Below are positions 2,560 to 14,583 of a stretch of DNA of 64,000 bases, piece after piece. This DNA is from Acidobacteriota bacterium (lineage in GTDB: Bacteria; Acidobacteriota; Terriglobia; Terriglobales; Acidobacteriaceae): NCBI GenBank assembly GCA_021792135.1, contig JAJYVF010000002.1, forward strand, positions 186,001-250,000. Reading direction: 5' to 3'. A model generated the notes under the pieces. That model was not told the DNA's origin and did no database searches. It was given only the letters and a program-made list of their open reading frames with translations. Numbering within the stretch: position 1 is the first letter of the stretch; every line of letters begins with the position of its first letter. The position numbers were made by a program, and so were the translations under genes.

Positions 2560-5500
2560 CTAGGAACAACCGCTTGTGCTGCCGCAGCTCATGCAGCGGT
2601 AGCAGCTTCCGTTGCGCACCATGATCGCCCCGCAGGTGTGGCAGCTCGGCGCGTCCCCCATGTCGTACATGCTGCGCATCGCGTCCGCCGCGTGGTAGAT
2701 GCCGCGGTCCTCCATGGAAGCGGGAGAAACGCTGTAGCGCGATCCGGCAGCTTCGGCTTCAGGAGCGATCCCGCCGCGGGGAGCGCTGGCTGCGCCCATG
2801 CCCCGCGTTGGAGAATGCTGCTCGGGCGCGAGCGGCCCTTCTTCGTCCGGCGCGGCAGCCGCTGCCGGCGCAGGCGCCAGGCCCGCGAAGAGCGAGAGCT
2901 GCTGGCCGGAGAGGAAGCGCAGCTGCAGCCAGCGGAAGATGTAATCCATGATGGATTTCGCGTAGCCGATCTGCTCGTTGCCGGTCCAGCCGGAGGGCTC
3001 GAAGCGGGAGTGCGCGAACTTCTCGCAGAGCACCCGCAGCGGGACTCCATGCTGCAGCGAGATCGAAGCCGCGGTGGCGAAGCTGTCCATCAGGCCCGAA
3101 ACCGTCGAGCCCTCCTTCGCCATGCGGATGAAGATTTCCCCCGGCTGGCCGTTGGGATAGAGACCCACCGTGATGTAGCCTTCGTGCCCCGCGATATTGA
3201 ATTTGTGGGTCAGCGAAGCACGCTCCTCGGGCAGACGGTGGCGCACGGCGCGCGGCGGACCCTCCGGATGCTCCGGAGCAGCCTCGCCCGCGGCCGCCTG
3301 AGCCAGCGCCGCCGTGAATGCCTGCGTTGCCGCCACCAGCGATCGGGCCGCGACTTCCACCTTCTCTGCCGGCTTCGCCTCCAGCAGCTTCAGGTCCGCT
3401 TCGCCGGCCTTATTCCCCAGGGCCGGCGCCGCCAGCACCCGTTCGGCCGCGGCCGTCAGCTCAACCGAAGCGGCGCTCTGCCGGATCTCCTTGGCCTTCG
3501 CGCCGTCGGAGACATTCAGCGGCTGCGCCCCCTTCGATCCATCGCGGTAGATGGCCACCGCCTTCAGCCCCAGCCGCCACGCCTGCAGATAAGCCTCGGC
3601 GATGTCGTCGAGGGTGCAGTCGTGGGGCAGGTTCACCGTCTTTGAAATGGCTCCGGAGAGGAAGGGCTGCGTCGCCGCCATCATGCGCACATGGCCCATG
3701 TAGTGGATGGAGCGGGTGCCCTTGGCTGGCTTAAAGGAGCAGTCGAAGACGGCCAGATGCTCGGGCTTGAGTCCAGGCGCGCCTTCGATGGTGCCGGTGG
3801 CGTCGACGTAGCTGACGATCGCATCCACCTGGGCGTTGTTGTAGCCCAGTTTGAAAAGCGCCGTCGGCACGGTGTTGTTCACGATCTTGATCATGCCGCC
3901 GCCCACCAGCTTCTTGTACTTCACCAGCGCCAGATCGGGCTCGATGCCCGTCGTGTCGCAGTCCATCATGAAGCCGATGGTGCCCGTCGGCGCCAGCACC
4001 GTCACCTGCGAATTCCGGTAGCCGTGCTTTTCCCCGTGCGCCAGCGCCTGGTCCCAGCACTCCTTGCTGGCCGCGATCAGCTCGTCGAGCTGCGGCGTCA
4101 CGAAGGGCTCCGCGGAGGTCTTCGACTTGCCGATCTTGTTGACCTCGGCGCGATGCATCCGGATCACGTCGAGAAACGGCTCGCGGTTGACATAGAAGCC
4201 CGGGCAGGCGCCGCCGTTTTCCGGATTGGCCCCGGCCGTTTGCGGCGTCGCCGAGGCCAGCGCCGGGCAGGCTTCGGCCACGCGCGCCGACTGCAGATAC
4301 GCCTCGCCGCACATGATGGCCGTCAGCGTCGCGGCAAAGTCCCGCCCCGCATCGGAGTCATACGGCAGGCCGAAGGCCATCAGCAGCGCGCCGAGGTTGG
4401 CGTAACCCAGCCCCAGCGGCCGGTAGTCGTGCGAGTTGCGCGCGATCGCCTCGGTGGGATAACCGGAGTTGTCCACCAGAATCTCCATCGCCGTGATCAT
4501 CACGTCGATCGCCGCGCGGTAGGCCGCGACATCAAATGTGCCGGCCGGAGATACAAATTTCAGCAGATTGAAGCTCGCCAGGTTGCAGGCGGAGTTGTCC
4601 AGGAACATGTACTCCGAGCAGGGATTGGAGGCATTAATGCGCGCCGTGTTCTTCGACGTGTGCCAGCGGTTGATCGTCGAGTCGTACTGCATGCCGGGAT
4701 CGCCGCACTGCCAGGTGGCCTCGGCGATTTTCTTCATGATCTCGCGAGCCTTGTAGGTCTTCACCGGCTTGCCGTCTTTGACCGTGCGGGTCGAGAACTC
4801 GCCGTCCTTCTCCACCGCGCGCATGAACTCATCGGTGACGCGCACGGAGTTGTTGGCGTTCTGGAAGAAGATGCTGCTGTACGCCTCGCTGTCCGGCCCC
4901 GAGGAGCCGTCGTAGCCCTCGCGCATCAGCGCCCACGCCTTGGCCTCTTCCTTCGCCTTGCACTCAATGAACTCAACGATGTCCGGATGATCGACGTTCA
5001 GGATCACCATCTTCGCCGCGCGCCGCGTCTTGCCCCCGGATTTGATCACCCCCGCAAACGCATCGAATCCCCGCATAAAGCTCAGCGGCCCCGAAGCCGT
5101 TCCGCCGCCCGACAGCGTCTCCATCGAGCCGCGAATGCTCGACAGATTCGTCCCCGTCCCCGAGCCCCACTTGAACAGCATGCCCTCGGTCTTGGCCAGG
5201 GTCAGAATCGAATCGAGCGAGTCTTCAACGGCATTAATGAAGCACGCCGAGCACTGCGGCTTGCGGTAACCCGTCACGGAGAACTCCACCCCGCAGATGT
5301 GCTGGTTCCAGTGCCAGTTCTGCGCGTCGGAGTTGGGCTCCAGCCGGTCGCAGCCCACGTTGAACCACACCGGCGAGTTGAAAGCCGCCTTCTGGGTGAT
5401 GAGCAGGTGCGCCAGCTCATCGTGAAAGACGGCCGCGTCTTCCGCCGTCGCGAAGTACCCGCCCGCCAAACCCCAGTCGCGGATCGTCTCCGCCACCCGG

Positions 5501-5835
5501 CCCACCAGCTGGCGAACCCCTGTCTCCCGCTCCGCCGTGCCGATCTGCCCGTGGAGATATTTGCTGGCCACGATGTTGGTCGCCGTCATCGACCAGTCCA
5601 CCGGCACCTCGACATCCTTCTGCTCGAAGATCGTCTTGCCGCCCGCATCGGTGATGGCCGCCGTGCGCCGCTCCCACTGCACCTCATCCCAGGGCGACAC
5701 GCCGGCCCGCGAGAAAACCCTTGGGAAGCGCAGCGCGCCTCCCTGTGCGGCAGCATGGCCGCTTCCCTCGGCTACGGTCTTTGCAGTCCTGTTCGGGGAC
5801 GCAACAGCAACGGATTGTTTTTGCGTGTCGGCCAT
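2560..5835 (-). CDS. nrdJ: Adenosylcobalamin-dependent (class II) ribonucleotide reductase
   Basis: This 1091-residue enzyme reduces ribonucleotides to deoxyribonucleotides using a radical made from adenosylcobalamin, so it works with or without oxygen. Visible signatures: NPCSEYMFLDNSACNLASFN near residue 405, the class II motif APTGTIGFMMDCDTTGIEPD near 617, a TSCPD-type domain around residue 890 (YITVGLYPNGQPGEIF), and a C-terminal zinc-ribbon-like tail CHTCG...CYRCMSCGSTSGCS. The tail contains the Cys residues that normally re-reduce the active site. Ala/Pro-rich linkers (residues about 800-850 and 990-1030) separate the domains. Length fits the long NrdJ form of many soil bacteria. No class I or III reductase appears in the window. 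I saw no NrdR box or cobalamin riboswitch upstream. Confidence 0.97.
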   Translation of the reverse strand: MADTQKQSVAVASPNRTAKTVAEGSGHAAAQGGALRFPRVFSRAGVSPWDEVQWERRTAAITDAGGKTIFEQKDVEVPVDWSMTATNIVASKYLHGQIGTAERETGVRQLVGRVAETIRDWGLAGGYFATAEDAAVFHDELAHLLITQKAAFNSPVWFNVGCDRLEPNSDAQNWHWNQHICGVEFSVTGYRKPQCSACFINAVEDSLDSILTLAKTEGMLFKWGSGTGTNLSSIRGSMETLSGGGTASGPLSFMRGFDAFAGVIKSGGKTRRAAKMVILNVDHPDIVEFIECKAKEEAKAWALMREGYDGSSGPDSEAYSSIFFQNANNSVRVTDEFMRAVEKDGEFSTRTVKDGKPVKTYKAREIMKKIAEATWQCGDPGMQYDSTINRWHTSKNTARINASNPCSEYMFLDNSACNLASFNLLKFVSPAGTFDVAAYRAAIDVMITAMEILVDNSGYPTEAIARNSHDYRPLGLGYANLGALLMAFGLPYDSDAGRDFAATLTAIMCGEAYLQSARVAEACPALASATPQTAGANPENGGACPGFYVNREPFLDVIRMHRAEVNKIGKSKTSAEPFVTPQLDELIAASKECWDQALAHGEKHGYRNSQVTVLAPTGTIGFMMDCDTTGIEPDLALVKYKKLVGGGMIKIVNNTVPTALFKLGYNNAQVDAIVSYVDATGTIEGAPGLKPEHLAVFDCSFKPAKGTRSIHYMGHVRMMAATQPFLSGAISKTVNLPHDCTLDDIAEAYLQAWRLGLKAVAIYRDGSKGAQPLNVSDGAKAKEIRQSAASVELTAAAERVLAAPALGNKAGEADLKLLEAKPAEKVEVAARSLVAATQAFTAALAQAAAGEAAPEHPEGPPRAVRHRLPEERASLTHKFNIAGHEGYITVGLYPNGQPGEIFIRMAKEGSTVSGLMDSFATAASISLQHGVPLRVLCEKFAHSRFEPSGWTGNEQIGYAKSIMDYIFRWLQLRFLSGQQLSLFAGLAPAPAAAAAPDEEGPLAPEQHSPTRGMGAASAPRGGIAPEAEAAGSRYSVSPASMEDRGIYHAADAMRSMYDMGDAPSCHTCGAIMVRNGSCYRCMSCGSTSGCS

Positions 5836-6458: not shown

Positions 6459-7043
6459 CTACCGCAGGATCGGAAACGGGCTCATCGAATTGCTGCCGTA
6501 ATCCAGATCGAAACCCAGCTGCAGCTTCGCGGCCTCCGACATGCGCCCCGGGTTCCAGGGCGGATCGAAGACCACCTGCACCCGCACCTCCCTGACCTCG
6601 GGCAGACGGCGCAGCTTGCTTTCCACGTCGGCTTTCAGCACCTCGGACATCCCGCAGCCGGGCGCCGTCAGCGACATCGCGATATCGATCGCCCTGCCCC
6701 CCTCGGGGTGCTCGCTGATCTCGCACGAGTAGATCAGCCCCAGATCGACGATGTTCACCGGAATCTCCGGATCGTACACCGTCTTCAGCTGATCCCAGAC
6801 CATCCTCTCGCTGAAGATCGGAGGCGCCTGCGCGGCAGCCGAAGGGCCGCTCAGCCCCAGCGCATCGGCATCCTTCTCCTCGATGCGGTAGAGCCTGCCG
6901 GTGGCGGAAACCGTATAGCTCCCTCCCATCGCCTGCGTCACGCGCACCGTCGTGCCCGCAGGCAGGAGCGTCCGCGTGCCCGCCGGAATCTCAGTCGCCG
7001 GGCAGTCGCGCTTCAGCGCAATGGTTTGGTTGGTAATAATCAT
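6459..7043 (-). CDS. sufT: Iron-sulfur assembly protein SufT (DUF59/MIP18 domain)
   Basis: From the ATG at 7043 (MIITNQTIALKRDCPATEIP) the product is 194 residues. The N-terminal half is the SufT-specific beta domain (GTRTLLPAGTTVRVTQAMGG, then YTVSATGRLYRI). The C-terminal half is the DUF59/MIP18 domain, with VWDQLKTVYDPEIPVNIVDLGLIY and the cysteine-containing MSLTAPGCGMSEVLKADVES loop. DUF59 proteins act late in Fe-S cluster transfer or maturation. It is the last gene of the sufBCDSUT run, 85 bases after sufU. A longer frame exists upstream but is Arg-rich and overlaps the intergenic gap, so the internal ATG is preferred. Confidence 0.9.
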   Translation of the reverse strand: MIITNQTIALKRDCPATEIPAGTRTLLPAGTTVRVTQAMGGSYTVSATGRLYRIEEKDADALGLSGPSAAAQAPPIFSERMVWDQLKTVYDPEIPVNIVDLGLIYSCEISEHPEGGRAIDIAMSLTAPGCGMSEVLKADVESKLRRLPEVREVRVQVVFDPPWNPGRMSEAAKLQLGFDLDYGSNSMSPFPILR

Positions 7044-7128
7044 CGATCTGTCATCCTGAGCGAAGGCTGTTCGCCCCGCGGAACAGCCGCAGCCGAAAGC
7101 CCCGGATCTCCTCGACTGCCGAGGCCGC

Positions 7129-7575
7129 CTATTCCGTCGAGACCTTCTCCTGCTTGCCCTCGAGCGCCGCTTCCAGCGTATGCCACGCCAGCGTCGCACA
7201 CTTCACCCGCATCGGAAACTCCGAAACGCCGGAGAAAACCGCCAGCTTCCCCAGCTCCGCCTCCTGCCCCTGCGAGTGTCCCGTCACCAGCTCGTGAAAC
7301 CGATGAAAGATCTTCTCCGCCTCGGCCTTTGTCTTGCCCTTCACGCTCTGCGTCATCATCGAGGCCGACGCCTTCGAAATCGCGCACCCCGCGCCCTGAA
7401 AACCGATATCGCGGATCGAGTCCCCGTCCATCTCCAGATACACCGTGAAGCGATCCCCGCACAGCGGGTTGTAGCCCTCGGCCTTGTGGTTGGTGCCCGC
7501 GGGCTCGCGATAATTCCGGGGAGCCTTGCTGTGCTCCAGAATCACTTCCTGATACAGATCGCGCAGCTCCGCCAT
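7129..7575 (-). CDS. sufU: SufU-type zinc sulfurtransferase / Fe-S scaffold
   Basis: This 148-residue IscU-fold protein carries the SufU residues in order: NPLCGDRFTVYLEMDGD (Cys and Asp), GFQGAGCAISKASASMM (Cys), and MRVKCATLAWHTLE (Cys). It also has the extra segment between the second and third cysteine that separates SufU from IscU. In Gram-positive bacteria SufU takes the persulfide from SufS at a zinc site and passes it on to SufB. Its ATG overlaps the sufS stop by one base (TGATG), so the two are translationally coupled and probably act as a pair. Confidence 0.95.
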   Translation of the reverse strand: MAELRDLYQEVILEHSKAPRNYREPAGTNHKAEGYNPLCGDRFTVYLEMDGDSIRDIGFQGAGCAISKASASMMTQSVKGKTKAEAEKIFHRFHELVTGHSQGQEAELGKLAVFSGVSEFPMRVKCATLAWHTLEAALEGKQEKVSTE

Positions 7576-8831
7576 CAGCCAAAAACCTCCAGCACCCTGC
7601 CGATACCACGCGCCAGCGCATCCACCTCCGCCCGCGTGTTGTACACCGCGAACGATGCCCGCACCGTCGCCGGAATGCCGAAGCGGTCCATCACCGGCTG
7701 CGCGCAGTGGTGGCCCGTACGCACCGCAATCCCCTGCTGGTCCAGAATCGTCCCGATGTCGTGAGGATGAACGTCCTCGAGCACGAAGGACAGGACGCCC
7801 GCCTTTTCCGCCGCCGTCCCCACCAGCCGCACGCCCGGCAGCGAGCCGACGACCCGGGTCGCGTACTCCAGCAGATCGTGCTCATGTGCGCCAATCTGCT
7901 CCACGCCGATGCCGTTCATGTACTCGATTGCCGCCTTCAACCCGGCAACTCCCGCCATATCCGGCGTGCCCGCCTCGAATTTGTACGGGATGCTGTTATA
8001 AATCGTCTTTTCCCACGTCACCGAGCGGATCATGTCTCCGCCGCCCTGGTACGGAGGCATCGCCTCCAGCAGCGCCGCCTTGCCGTACAGCACTCCGATG
8101 CCCGTCGGCCCATACATCTTGTGCCCGGAAAGGGCATAGAACTCGCAGTCGAGATCCTGCACGTCGATCTGCATGTGCGGCGCCGCCTGCGCGCCATCCA
8201 CCAGCACCGGCACGCCTCTGGCATGCGCCATGGCGATCATCCGCTTCACCGGATTGACCGTCCCCAGCGCATTCGATACATGCCCGATGGCGGCAAGCTT
8301 CGTCCGCGGTCCCAGCAGCTGTTCAAACTCGTCGAGCAGCAGCTCGCCCTGATCGTTGATGGGCGCCACGCGCAGCTTCGCGCCCTTTTCCTGACAGATC
8401 ATCTGCCACGGCACGATGTTGGAGTGGTGCTCCATCGCCGTGACCAGCACTTCGTCGCCAGCGCCCACCTGGGTTCGCCCGAAGGTCTGCGCCGCCAGGT
8501 TGATGGCCTCCGTCGTGCCGCGCACAAAGACGATCTCCTTCACATGGGCCGCGTTGATGAAGCGCTGCACGGCCCGCCGGCCCACCTCGAATTCCTCCGT
8601 GGCTTTTTCGGAGAGGTAATGCACGCCCCGATGGATGTTCGCATTGCCGCTCTCGTAGTACTGCACGATCGCGTCGATCACCGCCTGTGGCTTCTGCGAG
8701 GTGGCGGCGTTATCCAGATACACCAGATCGTGCCCGCGCGCCTTCATGCGCAGAATCGGGAAATCCTCGCGGATGCGGGCTAAATCGAAGGAACCTGCTT
8801 TGCGAATCGGCACTGCGGCTACGGCGCTCAT
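7575..8831 (-). CDS. sufS: Cysteine desulfurase SufS
   Basis: From the ATG at 8831 this is a 418-residue PLP enzyme that removes sulfur from cysteine for Fe-S assembly. Visible sites are YLDNAATSQKP near the N-terminus, TEAINLAAQTFG, TAMEHHSNIVPWQ, the PLP lysine in ALSGHKMYGPTGIGVLYG, and the active Cys in VRTGHHCAQPVM. The short active-site loop and overall length place it in group II (SufS/CsdA). It overlaps sufD by four bases (ATGA). The frame is open further upstream, but that extension lies inside sufD and is not protein-like. Confidence 0.96.
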   Translation of the reverse strand: MSAVAAVPIRKAGSFDLARIREDFPILRMKARGHDLVYLDNAATSQKPQAVIDAIVQYYESGNANIHRGVHYLSEKATEEFEVGRRAVQRFINAAHVKEIVFVRGTTEAINLAAQTFGRTQVGAGDEVLVTAMEHHSNIVPWQMICQEKGAKLRVAPINDQGELLLDEFEQLLGPRTKLAAIGHVSNALGTVNPVKRMIAMAHARGVPVLVDGAQAAPHMQIDVQDLDCEFYALSGHKMYGPTGIGVLYGKAALLEAMPPYQGGGDMIRSVTWEKTIYNSIPYKFEAGTPDMAGVAGLKAAIEYMNGIGVEQIGAHEHDLLEYATRVVGSLPGVRLVGTAAEKAGVLSFVLEDVHPHDIGTILDQQGIAVRTGHHCAQPVMDRFGIPATVRASFAVYNTRAEVDALARGIGRVLEVFG

Positions 8832-10204
8832 CCAACCTCCTCCACAGCCCTCTCTGTAATGCGCGGACCCGACGGCACCCGGGGCGCCTGCTCCAGAAAC
8901 AGCAGATGCTCGCGGATCAGCCGTTCCATCAGCTCCTTCGCCACGGCAGAATGCATCCGTTCCACACACTCCTCGGCAAAGGCCAGCAGCAGCAGCTTGC
9001 GGGCCTCCGCTTCGCTCAGGCCACGCGACCGCAGATAGAAGAGCGCATTCTCCTCGATCTGCCCGATGGTCGCGCCGTGCGTGCACTTCACGTCATCGGC
9101 ATAGATTTCCAGCTGCGGCTTGGTATCGATTTGCGCATCGTCGCTCAGCAGCAGGTTGCGGTTCGTCTGCTTGGCATCGGTCTTCTGCGCATCTTTATGG
9201 ACCACAATGCGTCCGTGAAATACCCCGTGCGCCTGCTGGTCCAGGATGCCGTTGTAAAACTGCCGGCTGCCGCAGTGCGGGCTGGCATGCTCCACGTGCA
9301 TGTAATTGTCCAGATGCTGCCGCCCCGTCCCGAGAAATAAGCCGTTGATGAGGCACTCGCCGCCTTCGCCCGCCAGCACCGGATGGACATTGTTGCGCAC
9401 CAGCCCGCCGCCGAGCAGCAGCGAGTGCGAAGCCACATTCGCGCTCCGCCCCTGCTGAATGCGAAGCGTTTGCACGTTGAACGCCTTCAGGTGCTCGCGC
9501 TCGATCAGGTAATGCTGCGCCGTCGCGCTCTCCCCCGCGATCAGTTCCGTCACGGCATTCGAGAGCACCACAGACTCTCTGCCCACCGAGGCATAATCCT
9601 CAATCACGCTGACCTGGCTCTCGTCGTCCGCGACAATCAGGTTGCGCGGATGCGTCATGGCCGGCGTGCTTTCCTCGGTGGAGAGATACAGCAGATAGAC
9701 CGGTGCCTCGACCACCACGCCGCGTGCCACATGCACATACGCTCCGTCGCTGAGGAACGCCGTATTCAGCGCGCAGAAGGGATCCCGCCGGATATCGGCA
9801 TAGCGCCCCAGGTGCTGCTCCAGTTCCTGCGGATGGCTCTCCATCCGCTCCCGCAGGCTGGCGACGGTCACACCCTTCGGCAGCCTGTTGAGCTGGGACA
9901 GCTCCGGCGCAAAGCGCCCATTGACGAACACAATCTGCGCCGCCACTCCGTCCACGCGATACGGCGCGATCTCCGCCGCTGTCACCTTCGCCGCACCCGC
10001 TGGCCGGAACGTCGTCCGGGCAATCGCCGAGACATTCGTGAACCGCCAGTCCTCATCGCGCGTGGTCGGAAATCCCGTCTCGCAGAAGCGCGCAAAGGCG
10101 TCTTCGCGCAGCCGCCGCAGCCATGGCAGATTGCCTGCGCCCTTTGCCGCTTCGGAAAAGCTGTCGAGCCAGCTTTCCACGTGTTCGACCGCTGTCTCTC
10201 TCAC
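8828..10204 (-). CDS. sufD: Fe-S cluster assembly protein SufD
   Basis: This 458-residue protein is the non-catalytic partner of SufB in the SufBC2D scaffold. The right-handed beta-helix core is recognisable from repeated short strands (DESQVSVIEDYASV, ATAQHYLIEREHLKAFNVQT, RNNVHPVLAGEGGECLINGL), and the C-terminal helical SufC-binding part starts at DDVKCTHGATIGQIEENALF, with YLRSRGLSEAEARKLLLLAF. In SufD the conserved Cys of SufB is not needed, and the conserved His of this core region is covered here by YMHVEHASPHCGSRQ. Four-base overlaps with sufC upstream and sufS downstream indicate one transcript. Confidence 0.94.
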   Translation of the reverse strand: MRETAVEHVESWLDSFSEAAKGAGNLPWLRRLREDAFARFCETGFPTTRDEDWRFTNVSAIARTTFRPAGAAKVTAAEIAPYRVDGVAAQIVFVNGRFAPELSQLNRLPKGVTVASLRERMESHPQELEQHLGRYADIRRDPFCALNTAFLSDGAYVHVARGVVVEAPVYLLYLSTEESTPAMTHPRNLIVADDESQVSVIEDYASVGRESVVLSNAVTELIAGESATAQHYLIEREHLKAFNVQTLRIQQGRSANVASHSLLLGGGLVRNNVHPVLAGEGGECLINGLFLGTGRQHLDNYMHVEHASPHCGSRQFYNGILDQQAHGVFHGRIVVHKDAQKTDAKQTNRNLLLSDDAQIDTKPQLEIYADDVKCTHGATIGQIEENALFYLRSRGLSEAEARKLLLLAFAEECVERMHSAVAKELMERLIREHLLFLEQAPRVPSGPRITERAVEEVG

Positions 10205-11007
10205 GCTCGCGCTCCATCACGCCGCAGCGCAGGCGCGGCGGAGGCCCCGACTCCTGCGGTTTCCGGCTCAGCCCAGCTGTAGCCCTTCTCTTCCAGTTCC
10301 AGCGCCAGCTCCTTGCCGCCCGAGCGCACGATGCGCCCATCCACCAGCACATGCACGAAGTCCGGCACGATGTAGTTCAGCAGCCGCTGATAGTGCGTCA
10401 CCACCAGCATGGCGCGCTCCGGGTTGCGCAGCGAATTGACGCCGTTGGCCACGATGCGCAGCGCATCGATATCCAGCCCCGAATCCGTCTCATCGAGGAT
10501 GGCCAGCTTCGGCTCCAGAATCGCCATCTGCAGAATCTCGTTGCGCTTCTTCTCGCCGCCGGAGAAGCCCTCGTTCAGCGAGCGGCTCATCAGCTTGTCG
10601 TCCATCTCCAGCAGCGCCAGCTTTTCGCGAAAGAGCGGCAGGAAGTCCATCGCGTCCATCTCCTCCTGGCCGCGATACTTGCGCTGCGCATTGAGCGCCG
10701 AGCGCAGGAAATAGGTATTCCCGATGCCGGGAATCTCCACCGGATACTGGAAGGCGAGAAACACGCCTTCGCAGGCGGCTTCTTCCGGCTTCATGGCCAG
10801 CAGATCTTTGCCGTCAAGCGTAACCGAGCCATCCGTGATCTCATACGCATCGCGGCGCGCCAGCACCTGGGCCAGCGTGCTCTTCCCCGAGCCATTCGGC
10901 CCCATGATGGAGTGAACCTCGCCCGCGTTCACCGTCAGGTCGATCCCCTTGAGGATCTCGTTTCCATCCACACGCACGTGCAGATTCTTAATCTCCAGCA
11001 AACTCAT
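10201..11007 (-). CDS. sufC: Fe-S cluster assembly ATPase SufC
   Basis: This 268-residue ABC-type ATPase drives the SufBC2D scaffold. Walker A is MGPNGSGKSTLAQ near residue 36, the signature is GFSGGEKKRNEILQMA, and Walker B is LAILDETDSGLDIDALRIVA, the SufC form with the DETDSGLD stretch. The last 20 residues (GVGASAAPALRRDGARA) look like a non-conserved tail. It starts 37 bases after sufB and overlaps sufD by four bases. Confidence 0.96.
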   Translation of the reverse strand: MSLLEIKNLHVRVDGNEILKGIDLTVNAGEVHSIMGPNGSGKSTLAQVLARRDAYEITDGSVTLDGKDLLAMKPEEAACEGVFLAFQYPVEIPGIGNTYFLRSALNAQRKYRGQEEMDAMDFLPLFREKLALLEMDDKLMSRSLNEGFSGGEKKRNEILQMAILEPKLAILDETDSGLDIDALRIVANGVNSLRNPERAMLVVTHYQRLLNYIVPDFVHVLVDGRIVRSGGKELALELEEKGYSWAEPETAGVGASAAPALRRDGARA

Positions 11008-11044: not shown

Positions 11045-12502
11045 TCAGCCCACGCTGCCTTCGAGGCTCACGCTCAGCAGCTTCTGCGCTTCCACCGCAA
11101 ACTCCATCGGCAGCTCGCGAAAGACCTGCTTGCAGAAACCGTTCACGATCATCGAAACCGCGTCTTCCGTCTTCAGTCCGCGCTGTTGCAGATAGAAAAG
11201 CTGATCCTCGCCGATCTTCGAAGTCGCAGCCTCATGCTCCATCCGCGCCGAGGAGTTCTTCACCTCGATGTAGGGGAAGGTATGGGCGCCGCACTTGTCG
11301 CCGATGAGCAGCGAATCGCACTGCGTGTAGTTGCGCGCGCCCTCGGCGCCCTTCAGGATCTTCACCATGCCGCGGTAGGTGTTCTGTCCGTGCCCCGCGG
11401 AGATTCCCTTCGACACGATCGTGCTCTTCGTGTTCTTCCCCAGGTGGATCATCTTCGTCCCGGTATCCGCCTGCTGATAGTTGTTGGTCAGCGCCACCGA
11501 GTAGAACTCACCCACCGAGTTATCGCCCTGCAGAATGCAGCTGGGATACTTCCACGTAATCGCTGAGCCCGTCTCCACCTGGGTCCACGAAATCTTCGAA
11601 TTCCGCCCGAGGCACTTGCCGCGCTTGGTCACGAAGTTGTAGATTCCGCCCTTGCCGTTCTTATCGCCGGGGTACCAGTTCTGCACGGTCGAGTAGCGGA
11701 TCTGCGCATTATCCAGCGCCACCAGCTCCACCACCGCCGCATGCAGCTGGTTTTCGTCGCGAACCGGCGCTGTGCAGCCTTCGAGATAGCTCACGTAGGA
11801 GCCTTCGTCGGCGATGATCAGCGTGCGCTCAAACTGCCCCGTCTCCTGCGCGTTGATGCGGAAATAGGTCGAGAGCTCCAGCGGGCAACGCACTCCCTTC
11901 GGCACGTAGACAAACGATCCATCGCTGAAGACCGCCGCGTTCAGCGCTGCATAGAAGTTGTCCGTATGCGGCACGACGGAGCCGAGGTACTTCTTCACCA
12001 GCTCCGGATGCTTCTGCACCGCCTCCGAGAAGGAGCAGAAGATGACCCCGATCTCCGCCAGCTTCTCCTTAAAGGTGGTCGCGACGCTGACGGAATCAAA
12101 AACGGCGTCCACGGCGACATTGGCCAGCAGCTTCTGCTCGGCCAGCGGAATGCCCAGCTTCTCATAGGTCCGCAGAATCTCCGGATCCAGCTCGTCGAGG
12201 CTGCTCAGCTGCTTCTTCTGCTTCGGCGCCGAGTAGTACACGATGTCCTGGTAGTCGATGGGCGCGAATCTCACATTCGCCCACCGCGGCTCGGCCTGCT
12301 TCCGCTCCTGCTGCACCCAGTACCGGTAGGCGTTCAGTCGCCACTCCAGCATGAATCCCGGCTCCTGCTTCTTCGCCGAGATCATCCGGATCACATCCTC
12401 GTCCAGCCCCTTCCGGATCCGGTCTTCCTCAATCTCGGTCACGAAGCCCCACTCGTATTCCCGGCTGGCCAGCTCGTGGACCACATTCATATCCGTGCTC
12501 AT
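11045..12502 (-). CDS. sufB: Fe-S cluster assembly protein SufB
   Basis: This 485-residue beta-helix protein is the main scaffold subunit on which the cluster is built. Family landmarks are [20 protein letters not shown] at the N-terminus, [60 protein letters not shown], and the C-terminal cysteine region [20 protein letters not shown], whose first Cys matches the invariant sulfur-accepting SufB cysteine. It is the first gene of the operon. The promoter with an IscR-like operator lies about 70-95 bases upstream of the start, so this gene is the likely direct target of Fe-S-responsive control. No Rrf2/IscR gene is adjacent. Confidence 0.97.
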
Positions 12503-12570: not shown

Positions 12571-12599
12571 AATATACGACTAAAGCAGTCCTATATCAG
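12571..12599 (-). promoter_or_regulatory. suf operon promoter
   Basis: On the minus strand, CTGATA (12599-12594, four of six matches) is followed after 17 bases by TATATT (12576-12571, five of six). The spacer is almost entirely filled by the IscR-like palindrome, a typical repressor arrangement. Transcription would start about 60 bases before the sufB ATG. Confidence 0.6.
12572..12596. promoter_or_regulatory. IscR/SufR-type (Rrf2 family) operator
   Basis: The 25-bp element has the form ATATA-N-GACT-N5-AGTC-N-TATAT, with all nine arm pairs matched. The spacing GACT-N5-AGTC flanked by AT-rich arms is that of the E. coli IscR type-1 site (ATA-N3-GACT-N5-AGTC-N3-TAT). It overlaps the spacer and -10 box of the suf promoter. 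The regulator is not encoded within this window. Confidence 0.72.
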
Positions 12600-13020
12600 A
12601 GTGTAACCCCGCGCCGCGCCGCTTTCAACCTCGGCACTCAGGAAAAATCCCTCCTTTCCCTTCGATGCCCCACCCTCCTCCACCGCTTCACCGGGCCGCA
12701 ATCCAGACCCCACCCCGTCTCCCAGGCGCCTTGCGCCCCTCCACGCCCCAAAAAGGTCGCTCGCCGTCTCCCTGGATCGCGGTTGCGGCGGTCACGCCCG
12801 AAATCGCACGAGGCAGCTATCCCCAACGGTGCCACGGTGATGGGGACGGTCCGGCGAGTACTCTGGTCTCCGCAGTCTTCATCTTGTGCCGCCTGTACCT
12901 TGTGCCCCCCGCACCTGCCTTCTCCCCGTTACCTCCGTTCCCCCGCCCCTGCCTCCCGCGTTCGCCATCACCGTAAAATCCTGCCCGCCACTGCTACACT
13001 GCCCCGCAGAATCCCTGCTC
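12600..13020. other. Divergent intergenic region between suf and comM
   Basis: Apart from the suf promoter and operator at its left edge I found no gene, strong promoter or hairpin in this C-rich stretch. The small frames present have no family features. Confidence 0.5.
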
Positions 13021-14583
13021 ATGCTCTTCAAGGCCCTCAGCGCCGCCGTCTATGGCATCGACGCCAACATCATCGACGTCGAGGTGGATTTCTCCAGCTT
13101 CAAGGCGGAACAAGAAAGCTTCTCCACCGTCGGCCTCCCCGACGCCGCTGTCCGCGAATCCCGGGATCGCGTCCGCGCCGCCATCCGCAACTCCGGCTTC
13201 GACCTCCCGCCAACCCACATCACCATCAATCTGGCCCCGGCCGACCTGAAGAAGGAAGGGTCCGGTTTCGACCTCCCCATCGCGGTCGGCATTCTCGGAG
13301 CTTACGGGGCCCTCCAGCTCCGCGATCTCACCGACTTCCTGCTCATGGGCGAACTGGGCCTCGACGGGGGGCTGCGGCCGGTTCCGGGCATGCTGCCGGT
13401 GGCCGTCGCCGCCCGGGAGCGCGGCATCAAAAACCTCCTCATCCCCAAAGCCAATGCGCGGGAGGCCGCCGTGGTCGAGGGGGTCAGCGTCTATCCCGTC
13501 AACACTCTGATCGAAGTGCGCGATCTCCTGAATCAGGCGGGCAACGGCGGCATTCACGCCCAGCCCTTCCGCGTGGAGGCCACGCAGGTGCTCGGCGAGC
13601 TGCAACACTTCGCGCTGGACTTCGCCGATGTCCGCGGCCAGCAGACCGCCAAGCGCGCCCTCGAAGTCGCCGCCGCCGGTGGCCACAACATATTAATGAT
13701 TGGCCCTCCCGGCTCGGGCAAAACCATGCTCGCCCGCCGTCTCCCGTCGATCCTCGCGCCGCTCACCTTCGACGAGGCTCTCGAAACCACCAAAATCCAC
13801 TCCGTCGCCGGCGTCCTCGATGCCGAAGCCGGCCTCGTCACCCAGCGTCCCTTCCGTGCTCCCCACCACACCATCTCCGACGCCGGCCTGATCGGAGGCG
13901 GCGTCATCCCCCGCCCCGGCGAAGTCTCGCTCGCCCACAATGGCGTCCTCTTCCTCGACGAGCTGCCCGAGTTCCCCCGCAACGTCCTCGAAGTCCTGCG
14001 CCAGCCCCTCGAAGACCGCCACGTCACCATCGCCCGCGCCTCCATGTCGCTGACCTTTCCTGCGGCTTTCATGCTGGCGGCGGCCATGAACCCCTGCCCC
14101 TGCGGCTATTTCAACGACCGCACCCGCGAGTGCCACTGCACCCCGCCACTCATCCAGCGCTACGTCGCAAAAATCTCCGGCCCCCTCCTCGACCGCATCG
14201 ACATTCACATCGAAGTCCCCGCCGTCCAGTACAAAGAACTGCGCGGAGCCGCCGCCATCGAGAATTCCGCCACCATCCGCGCCCGCGTGCTGGCCGCCCG
14301 CCAACGCCAGCGCCAGCGCTTTGCCGCCGCAAAGGAAAGGATCTTCTCCAATGCCCAGTTGGGCACCCGCCAGATCCGCGCTCACTGCGAACTGAGCGCG
14401 GACGCCGAAAAGCTCCTCGAACGCGCCATGGTTCAGCAGGGCCTCACCGCCCGCGCCCACGACCGCATCCTGAAGGTCGCTCGCACCATCGCCGACCTGG
14501 AAGGAGCCCAGCATCTCGCCGTCCCCCACATCGCCGAGGCCATCCAGTACCGCACCCTGGACCGCAGTTACTGGGCGGGATGA
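13021..14583 (+). CDS. comM: YifB/ComM family Mg-chelatase-like AAA+ ATPase
   Basis: From the ATG at 13021 ([20 protein letters not shown]) the product is 520 residues. It has the N-terminal Lon-S5-like ChlI domain ([40 protein letters not shown]), an AAA+ module with Walker [14 protein letters not shown] near residue 228 and Walker [11 protein letters not shown] near 310, a cysteine cluster [18 protein letters not shown] near 355-370, and a C-terminal ChlI helical domain ([20 protein letters not shown]). In Vibrio and Acinetobacter ComM is a hexameric helicase that drives branch migration of incoming DNA during transformation; elsewhere its role is assumed by homology. The frame is open to 12886, but that extension is Pro/Cys-rich and atypical, and this start is the family norm. 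Confidence 0.93.

Follow-up and report, generated by a model that had tools for sequence, protein, structure and literature searches.

A predicted operator upstream of sufBCDSUT for an unlinked, ISC-associated Rrf2 repressor in an acidobacterium

The window analyzed here, a stretch of 64,000 nucleotides from an Acidobacteriota genome, carries a sufBCDSUT operon on its minus strand. The gene order had been read from the sequence, and all six genes are confirmed by curated family models above cut-off: sufB (11045-12502; TIGR01980 and PRK11814), sufC (10201-11007; TIGR01978), sufD (8828-10204; TIGR01981), sufS (7575-8831; TIGR01979), sufU (7129-7575; TIGR01994), and sufT (6459-7043; TIGR03406). 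The start of sufS is an ATG overlapping the end of sufD, the model match being that of the longer frame 7575-9086, and the start of sufT is an ATG inside the longer frame 6459-7199. The window also contains a frame resembling a ComM/Mg-chelatase-type ATPase (12886-14583) and another resembling a B12-type ribonucleotide reductase (2560-5835), both judged from the translation only.

The operon is preceded by a conserved promoter, TTGAAA-17-TACACT, which runs from 12628 to 12600 on the minus strand. The -35 hexamer (TTGAAA, 12623-12628) and the -10 hexamer (TACACT, 12600-12605) were assigned by consensus match and conservation, and the promoter ends three bases ahead of a palindrome. When the leaders of the genus were compared by eye, TACACT with TTG 17-18 bases ahead was kept in all 11, and the conserved unit consisted of TTG-N17/18-TACACT, a few bases, and then the palindrome. 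The center of the site lies 75-135 bases ahead of the sufB start codon in these 11 genomes. The nine leaders that were aligned share little else beyond the promoter and the gene start, and the leader is largely unalignable; therefore, the palindrome stands out as a footprint. The sequence-only reading had placed the palindrome in the -35/-10 spacer of a good promoter. Instead, it lies just downstream of the conserved promoter, at the expected transcript start. The promoter proposed in that reading, CTGATA-17-TATATT (12571-12599, minus strand), is present, but it was set aside because its TATATT -10 is intact in only five of the 11 genus leaders, compared with 11 of 11 for TACACT.

The palindrome occupies 25 bp at 12572-12596 (no strand assigned) and reads ATATA-C-GACT-AAAGC-AGTC-C-TATAT, so that the GACT-N5-AGTC spacing reported earlier can be read directly. 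It had been described as perfect, which holds for all nine pairs of the ATATA/TATAT and GACT/AGTC arms but not for positions 6 and 20 (C and C) or the five center bases, which are unpaired. Its sequence, uniqueness, matrix score, and conservation make it a predicted operator with a GAC-N7-GTC core and TATAT/ATATA flanks. The core alone is unremarkable, since bare GACT-N5-AGTC occurs once in the window and 0.68 times on average in shuffled windows. The 5.1-Mb genome has a single match to the extended pattern TA-N3-GACT-N5-AGTC-N3-TA and none to its reversed control. A weight matrix was trained on 24 iscR-promoter sites of other genera, with no sequence of the own genus included. This matrix gives the palindrome 32.1 bits and the runner-up in the window 5.7, and its maximum was 22.0 in 20.4 million positions of simulated DNA with the dinucleotide make-up of the window. 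The palindrome is real, and chance falls far short of explaining it.

Of the 61 relatives searched, 36 gave a SufB match, a few of these being a fragment or a weak match only. As the sequence-only reading had expected of close relatives, the palindrome is conserved upstream of sufB: it is present in all 11 genus genomes that have the gene. In the twelfth genus genome, G001, neither sufB nor the palindrome was found. More generally, the site is present at sufB (25.2-37.8 bits) in all 16 of the family genomes examined that lack an rrf2 next to suf, namely the 11 of the genus and five others (G028, G122, G298, G304, and G316). The Rrf2 genes of G122, G298, G304, and G316 lie on contigs other than that of suf, and that of G028 lies about 170 kb from suf; G304 and G316 each encode a second Rrf2 protein above cut-off. 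The same promoter-palindrome block precedes sufB on the MAG contig L009, where no rrf2 was found in about 600 bases upstream.

The other suf operons examined in the family have rrf2 upstream of sufB, adjoining in all copies but L264, where it is about 0.4-0.5 kb off. The matrix was also run within 1200 bases of sufB on ten loci that have rrf2 upstream, the MAG locus L008 and nine from the family; it gave at most 19.1 (L263), the rest ranging from 2.8 to 15.4. Several of these leaders contain TAC-N7-GTA-like palindromes that the matrix scores weakly. Among 12 relatives from the order or class, mostly with rrf2 downstream of suf, the best score was 5.3. G123 has two SufB copies (L262 and L264), one with the usual adjacent rrf2 and the other with an Rrf2-like gene farther upstream. 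The Rrf2 gene of L161-L166, which are loci of order or class relatives, lies downstream, not upstream, of suf and belongs to a different clade (MKLTSQEEYGL type).

The regulator gene had been thought to be unlinked to suf, and indeed no Rrf2 gene was found on the suf contig. Genome-wide, there are two Rrf2 genes above cut-off (contigs 17 and 69) and two sub-threshold matches (contigs 57 and 48). The search for an Rrf2 protein with three cysteines, suggested in the sequence-only reading, returned P0002, so the genome does not lack an Rrf2 protein. The P0002 gene lies on another contig and ends 21 bases ahead of iscS, which encodes an IscS-type desulfurase according to its family model. P0002 belongs to the Rrf2 superfamily (PF02082, 113.4 bits against a cut-off of 30; TIGR00738, 114.1 against 73.3) and carries C93, C100, and C106 in the cluster loop. 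A cysteine triplet of the same kind is found in the listed iscR-linked orthologues. P0002 falls below the IscR cut-offs (TIGR02010, 67.0 against 207.55 bits; PRK10857, 48.4 against 275) and below that of the SUF-regulator family TIGR02944 (96.5 against 110.65). The other Rrf2 protein above cut-off, P0003, has no cluster cysteine triplet; among named families it comes nearest to HypR, with 45.7 bits where 180 are required.

Outside the genus, the P0002 orthologue is mostly the first gene of a more complete isc operon. The GAC-N7-GTC motif lies within 220 bases upstream in all 18 P0002-type iscR-iscS loci first found there, 16 of the family and two of the class. By consensus reading, the motif in iscR promoters is located between the -35 and -10 hexamers or directly after the -10. 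An earlier count gave a site in 42 of 44 distinct iscR loci (46 rows, G150 and G218 being doubled), 18 of which were training loci of the matrix. In a wider set, with a site defined as at least 10 bits within 260 bases, this dropped to 32 of 38 loci of other genera, G129, G150, G210, G218, G223, and G294 being without one. By contrast, none of nine iscR promoters of the own genus has a site, the best matrix score being 2.7. Since the iscR promoter of the genome itself has no site, nothing within this genome ties P0002 to the motif.

The presence of the site can be compared with the state of isc. In the stretch around iscR, both iscS and iscU are found in 34 of the 38 loci of other genera; G298 and G304 combine iscR with iscA and lack both iscS and iscU, and G218 and G294 have iscR and iscS only. 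In the nine genus loci, too, iscR and iscS are the only isc genes over 5.8-7.1 kb counted from the start of iscR. The site is missing at all 11 iscRS-only loci, which come from three groups of relatives, and at four of the 34 fuller loci, G129, G150, G210, and G223 having full isc operons. Loss of the iscR site thus goes with erosion to iscRS, though it is not confined to iscRS-only loci. In three genus genomes (G002, G009, and G010), a P0002 orthologue was not found, though their sufB carries the site. The matching iscS lies at the contig start or is cut by it in G010 and G002 (bases 167 and 3), so the absence of iscR there may be an assembly artifact. In G009, which is 96% complete, both iscR and iscS are missing.

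We consider it likely that the palindrome is an operator for P0002, a predicted cluster-type Rrf2 repressor that would control sufBCDSUT in trans. A trans-acting Fe-S sensor over suf, as envisaged in the sequence-only reading, is retained as the best reading: the three-cysteine Rrf2 protein is encoded elsewhere, and the site matches those in the promoters of its orthologues. When Fe-S clusters are sufficient, holo-P0002 would bind the palindrome as a dimer. Since the palindrome begins three bases past the -10, a dimer bound there would lie over the transcription start, immediately after TTGAAA-17-TACACT, and would block RNA polymerase. Under iron shortage or oxidative stress, P0002 would lose its cluster and suf would be derepressed. 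The direction of this response is expected by analogy with RisR of Myxococcus xanthus, which represses both isc and suf as the holo-protein (PMC9973013). Three observations weigh against P0002 as the regulator: its orthologue was not found in G002, G009, and G010; the iscR promoter of the own genome carries no site; and P0002 probably lacks the wing arginine of most Rrf2 proteins.

Other proteins or mechanisms could account for the palindrome. If P0003, which has no cluster cysteines, were the binding protein, suf would answer a different signal. P0003-type genes are present in G002, G009, and G010, where a P0002 orthologue was not found. However, the motif is the one at the P0002 orthologues' own promoters, and the sole GAC-N7-GTC upstream of P0003-type genes (L153 and L167) sits in G+C-rich surroundings with the AT flanks absent. 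We regard control by P0003 as unlikely. The label given in the sequence-only reading, a true E. coli-like type-1 site of a dual-mode IscR, would fit the GACT-N5-AGTC spacing of the type-1 consensus and the three cysteines of P0002, an Rrf2 protein. This label has been dropped and we hold it to be quite improbable: the palindrome differs from that consensus at 6 of 25 positions by hand count, with no match at up to three mismatches; its GAC-N7-GTC core is RisR-like; and P0002 lies under the TIGR02010 and PRK10857 cut-offs. Furthermore, as aligned to E. coli IscR, P0002 presumably keeps neither the major-groove residues of IscR nor the wing arginine. Most Rrf2 proteins are reported to keep this arginine (PMC9973013).

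The idea that the element folds as a hairpin in the 5' leader RNA was also set aside, on promoter position and on poor pairing over 65 sites. The site is expected in the transcript start, and its arms could pair save for one G-G mismatch. In the iscR promoters of sister genera, however, the motif either lies ahead of the -10 hexamer or ends inside it and is thus untranscribed, and the innermost arm position is Watson-Crick in only 17 of 65 sites (28 of 65 with G-U). Such a hairpin is very improbable. Chance is scarcely credible. It could draw on the expectation of 0.68 cores per window and on the genus-wide pattern, which gives 21 matches against 22 in the reversed control; but 11 of these matches are accounted for by the sufB leaders of 11 genomes, the sequence flanking the palindrome is otherwise largely unalignable, and the matrix score is far above that of simulated DNA.

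The same scans bear on further targets of P0002. No second site was found in the own genome by the genus-wide pattern or the matrix. A loose scan gave seven sites there against six in the control, and the genus-wide pattern gave its 21 in 12 genomes. Since these counts barely differ from those of the controls, no second target is claimed in the own genome. Some of the remaining genus sites, at 23-34 bits, precede TonB-receptor-like outer membrane proteins or a Fur-family gene (G003). In other species of the genus (L193, L197, L199, L200, and L211-L227), the motif precedes CarboxypepD_reg/outer-membrane-barrel proteins resembling TonB-dependent receptors; a site of at least 23 bits is present in 12 of 17 loci examined, the one in L224 being that of the fur gene. 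The two loci of the own genome have no such site. In G003 (L195, 1499-1552; L210; L224), two adjacent sites of 27 bits each precede the Fur-family gene, which was found in only one of 12 genus genomes. In G011 (L189, 1499-1525), a 34-bit site lies ahead of a gene for a secreted-looking protein of 303 residues without a Pfam match.

The distribution of sites suggests how such control may have arisen. P0002 may once have been the autoregulator of a full isc operon, and a suf operon without its own regulator may have come under its control. In the own genus, isc would then have shrunk to iscRS and lost its own operator. The palindrome looks like the binding site of a repressor whose gene stands apart from suf, next to what is left of a second assembly system, and the regulator therefore seems to have outlived its own operon. 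In the SufB tree, orphan suf operons stand in three places, and well supported branches force at least three changes. Three separate takeovers of suf are favored by this tree; they are not claimed, because the AU test does not reject a single origin (p = 0.157). As a joint reading, which we offer tentatively and hold to be somewhat short of probable, SUF and ISC met in the family, SUF lost its own Rrf2 repressor, and that of ISC gained control of suf in trans, possibly in as many as three lineages. ISC then would have eroded in some lineages to iscRS or iscR-iscA, the regulator outliving the machine, and an autoregulated ISC circuit would have become a one-way SUF sensor with a single recognizable target in this genome.

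The general theme is already known, as PMC9973013 states that Rrf2 proteins have probably moved between ISC and SUF gene clusters on several occasions. Among the openly accessible papers searched, none was found that by title or start of abstract concerns Rrf2 control of suf in Acidobacteria. What is apparently new is an ISC-linked Rrf2 repressor that seems to have been re-aimed at suf. P0002 and suf make up a specific pair of regulator and target through which control of Fe-S supply in Acidobacteria can be tested. The genomes can be arranged as a natural series: some have ISC only, some have both systems with either two regulators or one, and some have SUF beside an ISC remnant. The series shows how a regulator can change hands as one essential machine replaces another.

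E. coli IscR has the Rrf2 fold and three cysteines, and its type-1 sites have the GACT-N5-AGTC spacing. P0002 shares the family and the number of cysteines, and the suf palindrome shares the spacing. They part where the palindrome departs from the type-1 consensus and P0002 from the IscR models, as described above. The E. coli protein represses isc in its holo form and activates suf in its apo form (PMC9973013). The suf-adjacent Rrf2 regulators of the TIGR02944 type, such as that of L008, resemble the predicted system in placing suf under Rrf2 control, and the rrf2-sufB layout is found in many relatives. Unlike P0002, they are encoded in cis. Within the family, these suf-adjacent proteins form a clade that is separate from P0002 and well supported, and palindromes with a TAC-N7-GTA-like core lie upstream at several of their loci; some suf-adjacent Rrf2 loci of other phyla have GGACY-N5-RGTCC upstream.

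A further comparison is with RisR and with Rrf2 group IS6, which includes Acidobacteria among its phyla (PMC9973013). RisR footprints on GAC-N7-GTC at the isc and suf promoters, and the repressing form probably carries [4Fe-4S]. P0002 is likewise an Rrf2 protein with three cysteines, and the suf palindrome has the GAC-N7-GTC core and AT-rich flanks of the RisR/IS6 operator. The RisR footprint covers promoter elements, as the predicted position of the site here would, and in both cases one regulator is linked to suf and a second assembly operon, a link that is predicted for P0002. The cysteine spacing differs, being C-x9-C-x5-C in RisR (C92, C102, and C108) and C-x6-C-x5-C in P0002. The layout is also reversed: the RisR gene accompanies suf, and its product acts on isc in trans, whereas the P0002 gene lies beside iscS, and its product would act on suf in trans.
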